A stretch of DNA of 64,000 nucleotides, taken from the NCBI RefSeq assembly GCF_030295325.1, contig NZ_AP027059.1:496001-560000 (forward strand), read 5' to 3'. The position numbers and the translations under genes are program-made. This DNA is from Haliovirga abyssi (lineage in GTDB: Bacteria; Fusobacteriota; Fusobacteriia; Fusobacteriales; Haliovirgaceae). Shown here piece after piece: positions 10,597 through 61,214 of the stretch (position 1 is its first letter; every line of letters begins with the position of its first letter). The notes under the pieces are model-generated. The model searched no databases and was not told the origin of the DNA. It saw nothing but the letters and a program-made list of their open reading frames with translations.

Positions 10597-10626
10597 AAAA
10601 AGAGATACCTTAAGGTATCTCTTTTT
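10597..10626. terminator. tRNA-Leu terminator
   Basis: A 30-bp perfect palindrome (AAAAAGAGATACC, TTAA, and the complement) ends in five T, directly after the tRNA. Confidence 0.9.
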
Positions 10627-10634
10627 ATGTTAGA

Positions 10635-10822
10635 ATAGGAAAAGTATAAATTTATTATTGTGACTATATTTGAGTTATAATAGTTGAACACTATCTTTTT
10701 TTATAAATTTAATTGGAAGTTTTTTTTAGATGTGATATAATTGAGTAGTAAAGAAAAAATGATAATTGACACTAGGGAAAAAATATTTATGTTTCATAAG
10801 CTAAACCGTATCTTATTTTTTT
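10635..10822 (+). repeat. R1 dispersed repeat, degenerate copy
   Basis: The left end (10635-10656) matches the R1 start. The right end (about 10781-10822) matches ATTTATGTTT followed by an ATAAG/CTTAT hairpin and seven T. Segments A (10641-10651) and A' (10785-10794) still pair at ten positions, with the same two wobbles as the copy at 61074. The middle is diverged. No gene is visible in 10627-10884. Confidence 0.55.
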
Positions 10823-18561: not shown

Positions 18562-18585
18562 GATGAAGCATAGCTCATTTTTTAT
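18561..18585 (+). repeat. R1 dispersed repeat, right-end fragment
   Basis: The 25 bp starting at the last base of the glgC stop codon match the right end of R1 (AGATGAAGCRTARCTYATTT plus a T-tract). It stands directly before a complete copy. Confidence 0.6.
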
Positions 18586-18588
18586 TTG

Positions 18589-18730
18589 TTAGGAGAGTAT
18601 AAATTTGTCCAGAAAATAAGCTACGCCATTTTTTTGAAATATGAGATTTTTCAAGGCAAAATTTTTCAGAAGCCAAAAATTTAGAAAAATATTTATACTC
18701 TACCAGATTAAAGCGTAGCTTATTTTTTTA
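18589..18730 (+). repeat. R1 dispersed repeat, complete copy
   Basis: A 142-bp copy aligning end to end with 61074-61214 (one-base length difference, roughly 85-90 percent identity by eye). Segment A (18594-18604) pairs perfectly with A' (18691-18701), 11 bp. Segment B (18613-18626) pairs perfectly with B' (18713-18726), 14 bp, running into T7. The order A-B-A'-B' is crossing, that is pseudoknot-like or mutually exclusive. It lies between glgC and the ROK gene; nothing else is coding in 18562-18864. Confidence 0.85.
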
Positions 18731-18864: not shown

Positions 18865-19824
18865 ATGTTAAAGTATGTTGTAGGAATTGATGTGGGTGGA
18901 ACAAATATAAAAGCTGGAATATTAAAAAATAATGGAGAAATATTAAAGACTTATTCTATTAAGACAGAAGCTTTTAATGGTGCAGAGGATGTTTTGAATA
19001 GAATAAAAAATCTTGTGGAGAAAATGTTAGATGAAAATAATGTTTATAAAGCAGATGTTTTGGGAATAGGGATGGGAATACCTGGTCCAGTAAATACTGA
19101 TACAGGTGTTGTTAATTTTTGTGCAAATATGGTTGGATGGGAAAATTTTCCAGCAGCAGAAAAATTGGAAAAATTAACAGGATTAAAAGTAAAAGTTGGA
19201 AATGATGTAAACGTAATAACACTTGGAGAAGATTGGCTTGGTGCTGCAAAAGGGTATAAAAATGTATTAGGAATAACATTAGGGACAGGAATAGGTGGAG
19301 GAATAATTTTAAATGGACACCTTATATCAGGGACAAATGGAGCAGCAGGAGAAATTGGACATATGAAAGTAATTGAAGATGGAAAGCTTTGTGGTTGTGG
19401 ACAAAAAGGATGTTGGGAAGCTTACGCATCTGCAACAGGATTAGAAAGAGAAGCAGTATCAAGATTAAGAGTGAATAGAGATACTTTAATTTGGGAAGTT
19501 GTAAATGGAAATTTTTCAAAAGTAAATGCAAAAGTTATATTTGATGCTGCTAAGAAAGGCGATAAGTTTGCACTTGATTTAGTTGACTATGAAGTTAAAT
19601 ATTTATCTATAGGATTGTCTAATCTTATAAATATACTTAATCCTGAAATAGTTGTAATAGGCGGCGGAGTTAGTTTAGCAGGAGATATATTATTTAACAA
19701 ATTAAACAAAGCTTTAGAAAAAGATACGTTAAAAGTATCATTAGATGCTGTGAAAATAGTACCAGCAAAACTTGGAAATAGTGCAGGCCTTGTAGGAGCA
19801 GCTGCATTAATTGTTTTGGGATAA
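18865..19824 (+). CDS. ROK-family glucokinase
   Basis: Phosphorylates glucose, or a related hexose, with ATP. The 319-residue protein has the N-terminal phosphate loop DVGGTNIKAG (residues 9-18) and the GTGIGGG phosphate segment. The ROK zinc/substrate signature GHMKV...CGCGQKGCWE is near residues 165-193, and IVVIGGGVS is near the C-terminus. The spacing matches glucokinases of Firmicutes, Thermotogae and Fusobacteria. It has its own promoter and terminator, and lies between a glgC and the sugar transporter. That fits a role in feeding glucose-6-phosphate to glycolysis and glycogen. Confidence 0.9.
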   Translation: MLKYVVGIDVGGTNIKAGILKNNGEILKTYSIKTEAFNGAEDVLNRIKNLVEKMLDENNVYKADVLGIGMGIPGPVNTDTGVVNFCANMVGWENFPAAEKLEKLTGLKVKVGNDVNVITLGEDWLGAAKGYKNVLGITLGTGIGGGIILNGHLISGTNGAAGEIGHMKVIEDGKLCGCGQKGCWEAYASATGLEREAVSRLRVNRDTLIWEVVNGNFSKVNAKVIFDAAKKGDKFALDLVDYEVKYLSIGLSNLINILNPEIVVIGGGVSLAGDILFNKLNKALEKDTLKVSLDAVKIVPAKLGNSAGLVGAAALIVLG

Positions 19825-19852: not shown

Positions 19853-19887
19853 AAAAGACGAGAATTTAATTTTATTCTCGTCTTTTT
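19853..19887 (+). terminator. ROK gene terminator
   Basis: AAAAGACGAGAAT (19853-19865) pairs with 19874-19886 around an 8-nt loop, ending in T5. Confidence 0.88.
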
Positions 19888-19898
19888 CTAATTTAGTG

Positions 19899-19943
19899 GT
19901 AAAGCATAAATTTATTCAGAAAATAAGCTATGCTGTTTTGTTA
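19899..19943 (+). repeat. R1 dispersed repeat, left-end fragment
   Basis: Matches the first 45 bp of R1, including a segment-A-like AAGCATAAAT and B (AAAATAAGCTATGC). The downstream part is missing. Confidence 0.65.
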
Positions 19944-20003
19944 ATTGTACTTTTCATAAACTTATAAGACTATATTTTATATTACCTATTGTTTCACCTG
20001 TAA

Positions 20004-20107: not shown

Positions 20108-20236
20108 TTACTAAAATCCCTGAAAAAAACTATAATGTTTTTTTGAAATGTACAATTTTTCGAGACAAAATTTTCTTAAAATCCAAGAATTTAGAAAATA
20201 TTTATAATTTGTAAAACGAAATATATCTTTTTTTTA
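20108..20236 (+). repeat. R1 dispersed repeat, degenerate copy
   Basis: The central segment TTTTTTTGAAATGTACAATT to GAAAATATTTATAA aligns well with R1. Segments A and B are decayed and no longer pair convincingly; a T-tract remains at the right end. The 620-bp gap 19825-20446 holds this, the pieces listed separately and the trmB promoter, but no gene. Confidence 0.6.
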
Positions 20237-30697: not shown

Positions 30698-30749
30698 TAG
30701 GAAAGTAAAAAAATTGTCCAGAAATTAATAAAGCGTAGCTTATTTTTTA
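30698..30749 (+). repeat. R1 dispersed repeat, internally deleted copy
   Basis: The R1 left end (TAGGAAAGTA...TTGTCCAGAAA) is joined directly to the right end (AAGCGTAGCTTATTTTTT). The central ~90 bp, including A', is missing. It lies downstream of the chemoreceptor gene. Confidence 0.7.
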
Positions 30750-30828
30750 AATAAAAAAGCTAAAAACATTACTTGTTTTATAAACGAATGTGTAAGTGCT
30801 TTTTAACTCATTCCTTATAGAGAGAAAG

Positions 30829-37867: not shown

Positions 37868-37907
37868 TTTTTTTATTTAATGTGGAAAGAAGAAGCAATA
37901 TTGATAA

Positions 37908-37958
37908 AATAGAGAAATATTTATAACTTATGAAATGAAGCCTAGCTTCTTTTTTTTA
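37908..37958 (+). terminator. rRNA operon terminator formed from an R1 right end
   Basis: GAGAAATATTTATAACTTAT followed by GAAGC-CTA-GCTTC (37937-37949) and at least eight T matches the right half of R1. An upstream AAGAAGC (37890-37896) can also pair with GCTTCTT (37945-37951). It is the only terminator-like structure after the tRNA. Confidence 0.65.
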
Positions 37959-61073: not shown

Positions 61074-61214
61074 CTAGGAAAGTATAAATTTATTCAGAAA
61101 ATAAGCTACGCCGTTTTTTTGAAATATGCGATTTTTCAAAGCAAAATTTTTCAGAAACCAAAAATTTAAAAAAATATTTATGTTTTACCAGATGAAGCGT
61201 AACTTATTTTTTTA
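61074..61214 (+). repeat. R1 dispersed repeat, complete copy
   Basis: 141 bp aligning end to end with 18589-18730. A (61079-61089) and A' (61176-61186) pair at all 11 positions, two of them as G-U wobbles. B (61098-61111) and B' (61197-61210) pair at 13 of 14, with one C-A mismatch. It ends in T7. It lies sense-downstream of the DUF212 gene; 61036-61266 has no gene. Confidence 0.85.

Follow-up and report, generated by a model that had tools for sequence, protein, structure and literature searches.

A dispersed repeat of about 140 bp lies preferentially behind terminator T-runs in the genome of Haliovirga abyssi

The intergenic sequence at positions 18589-18730 of the window, i.e. of the whole 64-kb stretch of DNA that was analysed, combines crossed self-complementarity with a T-rich end, which raises the question of whether it is an RNA structure belonging to gene ends or a mobile repeat that lands there. 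The sequence-only reading had proposed a structured 3'-end or terminator element, possibly spread as a mobile repeat, and its structural part is partly supported by the present analysis. The explanation preferred here, with a probability of about 0.68, is that the sequence, named R1, is a non-coding, non-autonomous mobile element of about 140 bp that targets terminators.

The R1 consensus, TAGGAAAGTATAAATTTATTCAGAAAATAAGCTACGCC(A/G)TTTTTTTGAAATATGCGATTTTTCAAAGCAAAATTTTTCAGAAGCCAAAAATTTAGAAAAATATTTATGTTCTACCAGATGAAGCGTAGCTTATTTTTTTA, is composed, in order, of A, B, T7, hairpin 1, hairpin 2, A', B' and T7. In the copy at 18589-18730 (copy 1), these parts are all read on the plus strand, namely (i) an arm A (18594-18604), complementary at 11/11 positions to arm A' (18691-18701), (ii) an arm B (18613-18626), followed by the internal T7 and complementary at 14/14 positions to B' (18713-18726), (iii) a hairpin HP1 (TTTGAAA..TTTCAAR; 18633-18655), of 7 bp in the consensus and paired in 94.9% of the cells of 90 copies, (iv) a hairpin HP2 (AAATTTTT..AAAAATTT; 18659-18682), of 8 bp in the consensus and with 94-96% of cells paired, and (v) arm B' running into T7 (18713-18729), which is the right end of the element according to the arm match and to the right-end base frequencies of 59 copies. 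The two perfect pairings claimed for copy 1 were recovered, as was the B:B' mismatch reported for the second copy, whose B and B' arms are 93% complementary. The A-B-A'-B' complementarity is present in the consensus, where the B:B' loop of 86 nt encloses two further hairpins and crosses A:A'. An inverted-repeat search in both full copies found no terminal inverted repeats; since A:A' and B:B' are interleaved, the ends of R1 are not inverted copies of each other. In copy 1, the B:B' form is predicted to fold at -30.2 kcal/mol and the A:A' form at -23.3 kcal/mol, so that a switch between them would be physically possible. The B:B' stem and T7 of R1, despite the 86-nt loop, could in themselves form a putative terminator.

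Several further copies lie in the window, all on the plus strand. A genome-wide R1 model, based on sequence only and built from 30 genome copies, recovered five window copies, with E-values from 3e-38 to 3e-4. The two full-length copies are copy 1 (model match 18590-18729; 123.8 bits, E 1.8e-37), also found as a BLAST family, and copy 2 at 61074-61214 (model match 61075-61213; 126.2 bits, E 3.2e-38). A degenerate copy at 10635-10822 has two recognisable ends and a diverged middle; its left end reads TAGGAAAAGTATAAATTTATT, its right part (10719-10822) scores 17 bits, and directly upstream the sequence contains a perfect intrinsic-terminator hairpin, AAGAGATACC/GGTATCTCTT, followed by a T-run (10600-10623). 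The left part alone of R1 is present at 19899-19979 (25.8 bits, E 6.1e-7), downstream of another intrinsic-terminator hairpin visible in the sequence, AAGACGAGAAT..ATTCTCGTCTT, again followed by a T-run (19855-19884), and a degenerate copy covers most of the length of the element at 20122-20235 (37.9 bits, E 1e-10). The sequence also contains an internally deleted copy at 30698-30750, in which the left end is joined to B'-T6 and which is barely scored by the model on the plus strand, and the right half of an R1 behind the T-run of tRNA-Asn (37891-37956; 18.9 bits, E 2.7e-7, for a short stretch only). Directly upstream of copy 1 stands a B'-T6 remnant of an older R1 copy (18566-18583, 89% identical to 18711-18728), and the T-run of this remnant is the landing site of copy 1. 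The degenerate and partial copies listed by the sequence-only reading are therefore real, three of them being recovered by the model and the fragments at 18566, 30698 and 37908 being found in the sequence. An extra weak match at 19116-19175, within the ROK gene (E 3.7e-4), is probably due to chance.

At the genome scale, R1 is a dispersed non-coding repeat without any ORF, present at about 110 sites in one AT-rich genome. The two contigs scanned (C1, 2.43 Mb, and C2, 0.30 Mb; 2.73 Mb in all) gave 119 matches at E<=0.01, far more than chance would produce, and 135 at E<=1, and 72 of the 119 are essentially end-to-end matches to the model. Near-identical copies occupy unrelated sites of both contigs: those at C1:585715 and C2:165801 share 100% identity across 138 bp, which indicates recent movement, and other pairs reach 99.3%, several exceeding 99%. 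Together with a median pairwise identity of 88.6%, this spread points to movement over a long period as well as recently. Nested and tandem insertions are also present, and some flanks are probably duplicated; R1 is thus a real and mobile feature, as the suggestion of a mobile repeat had anticipated. No copy was detected by the model in 95 other genomes of the same order, exact R1 core patterns had no match across GTDB genomes (84,980 species), and R1 was absent from plasmids in a DNA similarity search and from viral contigs. A search of 60 genomes, in part of whose output the source genome itself was counted among the searched genomes, returned AT-rich matches of 21-66 bp in seven genomes (E 6e-5 to 9e-4), which were taken as chance. 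Rfam returned nothing relevant, either over the whole window or in a permissive search at R1 (E<=5), and no family reached its gathering score. As far as the genomes searched show, the R1 family is lineage-specific.

The stretches surrounding the R1 matches reveal where the element lands. Among 59 non-tandem copies, 48 (81%) have a run of at least five T no further than 20 nt from the left end, whereas the share among intergenic windows is 14% (p 5e-31), and a hairpin of -5 kcal/mol or lower accompanies 30 of these 48 T-runs (62%), against 81 of 331 leading-strand intergenic T-runs (24.5%; p 3e-7). A hairpin with its T-run is found directly upstream in 54% of the left flanks of the same 59 copies versus 5% of shifted windows, and a hairpin occurs on the other flank of R1 in 7%. 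The spacing is fixed, with 8 or 9 nt between the end of the last T-run and the GG of the element in 53 of 71 copies. Furthermore, at least ten R1 copies sit on the B'-T7 of another R1 copy. R1 is therefore found at a constant distance from a preceding T-run, with a preference for that of an intrinsic terminator, and in the same orientation as this terminator. The T-tract and the sense orientation noticed from the window are explained mainly by this position of R1, 8-9 nt behind a pre-existing T-run. Part of the position behind terminators is what purifying selection alone would leave. Truncated copies at C1:791045, C1:912932 and C1:1235799 end just past the internal T7 and retain no more than the left 46 nt, which points to deletions between T-runs.

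The orientation of R1 relative to genes is strongly biased, so that the random orientation named by the sequence-only reading as a refuting outcome did not occur. On C1, 61 of 70 copies (87%) follow the leading strand, and where the upstream gene lies on the leading strand, R1 is sense to it in 55 cases out of 64. The repeat R2, described below, follows the leading strand in 12 of 32 copies of the same genome and has no such bias, so the bias of R1 is not general to repeats. However, 93% of the genes of at least 120 aa at the sampled C1 loci lie on the leading strand, the switch between about 1.1 and 1.2 Mb being sharp, and the orientation of R1 could therefore follow from that of the genes alone; replication and genes are inseparable here, the cases with a lagging-strand gene numbering only five, some of them duplicates of one event. 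The earlier description of the six window loci as sense-downstream of a gene and ending in T6-T8 holds for most R1 copies of the genome but not for every one: 18 copies of at least 40 bits (11 on C1 and seven on C2) are antisense to both neighbouring genes, and on C2 the numbers of sense and antisense copies are about equal. At antisense copies, the right end is often 15 nt or less from the stop codon of the opposite gene, whose TAA with following A's reads as a T-run-ATT on the strand of R1.

The flanks may also carry traces of the joining event. The left and right flanks of a same copy are more similar (mean 7.77) than shuffled pairs (7.09; 0/2000 shuffles), and repeats scoring 11 or more (11-15) occur at six of 44 sites versus 1.9 expected. 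The best flank repeats, at C1:1137874 (TTTTTTTATTGGTTA), C2:171146 (TTTTTCTATTAATT) and C1:343169 (TTTTTTTGTTTAAT), include on both flanks target bases (G or C) that interrupt the T-run, and such repeats would not readily arise by simple recombination between T-runs. Clear long duplications are a minority, the T-run alone being repeated at many other R1 sites; a short duplication of the target on either side of R1, comprising the T-run and at most about 8 further nt, is therefore probable, not proven, at part of the sites.

These observations could be accounted for as follows. Most likely, R1 is mobilised in trans by an enzyme acting on the DNA of a terminator hairpin and its T-run. This enzyme, which the genome may have lost in the meantime or which may have escaped recognition, would make a staggered cut in a T6-7-ATTNNTA-like sequence behind a terminator hairpin and join R1 at the cut T-run. 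The right end of R1, T7-ATT, resembles the landing site, and its B'-T7-ATT would recreate a terminator-like landing site at every insertion, which may explain both the tandem or stacked copies and the T-run kept beside the element. Insertion behind an existing terminator would be nearly harmless, and this may be the main reason for the high numbers of the family. The crossed A-B-A'-B' complementarity would be a property of the mobile consensus, perhaps used by the enzyme to recognise the single strand or the RNA; no maintenance of it after insertion is measurable. A bolder proposal, which is tentative and judged rather unlikely, is a mechanism undescribed for short repeats, in which the mobile form (single-stranded DNA or a U7-ended RNA, folded with crossed stems) would itself recognise the terminator hairpin and T-run of other genes and be joined there with the same polarity, so that every copy would offer the next landing site.

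No transposase is tied to R1 in the genome. The candidate enzyme genes are a single IS200-type Y1 gene (145 aa), whose locus contains no R1 match, and group II introns at C1:75761, C1:2303956, C1:1741473 and C1:69212, two of which have an intact reverse transcriptase; a broken-frame group II intron adjoins an R1 left fragment at C1:1742203. Neither the Y1 gene nor the intron reverse transcriptases carry full R1 ends. One-ended R1 copies were inspected for an autonomous partner, and none opens a longer element, since they run into genes, insertion sequences (IS) or R2. Four loci with a shared extension (L103, L131, L147 and L153) were considered as an autonomous R1 and rejected, as they actually consist of R1 and a separate repeat, three of them in duplicated segments.

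This separate repeat, of about 260 bp, is joined to the right end of the four R1 copies, occurs twice without R1 (C1:1344504 and C1:1348962) and harbours stems as well as a T7 of its own close to its end. R2 is another short repeat (about 100 bp) with GGAACG..CGTTCC inverted ends, found in both orientations at about 40 other places besides L103 (C1:590324-590430); the paralogous segments L131, L147 and L153 are empty there. Several R1 copies are interrupted by R2. IS-like ends, TGTACCCTATAAGATGGACAT and CTGTACCCTTTGTCAAGTACATT, were also observed inside R1 (C1:2326010, C1:1186006, C1:1603745, C1:2134429, C2:179913 and C2:104627), several of them at comparable positions within A' or immediately beyond it, as would be expected if R1 were favoured as a target.

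Three other explanations have to be weighed against a mobile element that targets terminators. R1 could be a structured RNA owned by the host (a terminator, a 3'-end stabiliser or a pseudoknot switch) and selected at gene ends, a reading with which several observations agree: the sequence folds better than shuffles (z -2.67), most of the C1 copies that have a leading-strand upstream gene are sense to it, the four stems of the consensus remain paired in 93.3% of the cells of 90 aligned copies, and paired columns change less (7.2%) than unpaired ones (12.2%), with a base composition that differs between the two sets. However, the genome-wide alignment of these 90 copies, a limited test as they are paralogues of one genome, contains 11 doubly changed cells where shuffles give 15.0, and mutations that retain a G-U pair are not favoured over pair-breaking ones; as covariation does not exceed that of shuffles, an outcome that the sequence-only reading had itself named as refuting, there is no support for selection acting on a fold, be it a pseudoknot, a switch or a terminator. 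Moreover, an older terminator hairpin already stands directly upstream of more than half of the non-tandem copies, which speaks against a structured 3'-end or terminator as the explanation of the position, about half of the C2 copies are antisense, and R1 is restricted to one genome of the order. The copies behave as decaying copies of a structured source, unlike individually selected RNAs, and a host-owned RNA is considered unlikely.

The polarity of insertion would also fit a SINE-like bacterial retroposon, whose U7-ended transcript would anneal to the A-strand of a T-run and be copied by a reverse transcriptase acting in trans. Indeed, the T7 end is found in T-runs with matching polarity, the duplications are of variable length, and the two intact group II intron reverse transcriptases are available in the genome. 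This explanation is nevertheless quite improbable, because partial copies have kept the left end in 26 cases and the right end in eight (some being cut by other insertions), whereas 5' truncation is typical of target-primed reverse transcription; in addition, a link between R1 and a reverse transcriptase was not found, and Rfam detects no portion of a group II intron within R1. Finally, an ordinary repeat without any target choice could have inserted wherever the DNA is T-rich and survived mainly behind genes, and some antisense copies do lie in non-terminator T-runs, e.g. near the stop codon or Shine-Dalgarno sequence of the opposite strand. The 8-9 nt spacing, the excess of hairpins among the T-runs of R1 and the lack of orientation bias of R2 in the same genome make such indifference to the target highly improbable.

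Terminator targeting is the interesting property of the R1 family. If the preferred reading, a mobile element that targets terminators, is true, a short non-coding element aims at gene ends and has thereby found an answer to the question of landing sites that every parasite faces, its landing site being rebuilt by every insertion, and a second kind of terminator-seeking element exists besides group IIC introns. It would also be a warning that 'conserved T-ended intergenic structures' spotted by eye in one genome can be products of transposition and not necessarily riboregulators.

Insertion behind intrinsic terminators has a known precedent in group IIC introns, and R1 is likewise found there. 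Unlike these introns, R1 has only 140 bp, without a domain V match, a GTGYG start or an ORF, and shows probable flank duplications at some sites; the absence of any intron part sets it outside the group II introns. R1 shares with MITEs a short, AT-rich, non-coding sequence, many copies and a probable mobilisation in trans, but its inverted repeats are subterminal and interleaved and no autonomous parent shares its ends; without terminal inverted repeats, it is not a MITE by definition, whereas R2, by comparison, looks like an ordinary one. In REPIN/RAYT systems and in non-autonomous elements of the IS200/IS605 type, single-strand structure takes part in recognition, as it possibly does for R1. 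Nevertheless, R1 has no inverted pair of REP hairpins, its left flank does not consist of a constant tetra- or pentanucleotide, and no RAYT gene with flanking copies was found, the sole IS200-type gene carrying no R1 ends.

In placement, the nearest described repeat is SPRITE of Streptococcus pneumoniae, known from 30 copies with an 18-bp duplex, a U-rich tract and AAAA/TTTT ends, without an established duplication and with 63% of copies on the leading strand (PMC3049150). Like R1, SPRITE is, with BOX and RUP, an AT-rich intergenic repeat of small size that belongs to one species group, and it has a terminator-like T-rich end, a location near gene 3' ends, a mirrored leading-strand bias and no known transposase. 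The architecture differs, and R1 is set apart by description: it has about 110 copies, crossed arms, a loop of 86 nt and 87% of C1 copies on the leading strand, lacks the single long terminator-like hairpin with T-rich tract of SPRITE, and lands at a constant distance downstream of a distinct terminator that predates it. In summary, R1 can be placed among the bacterial jumping repeats already known, its unusual features being the structure of its ends and the landing site that it chooses.
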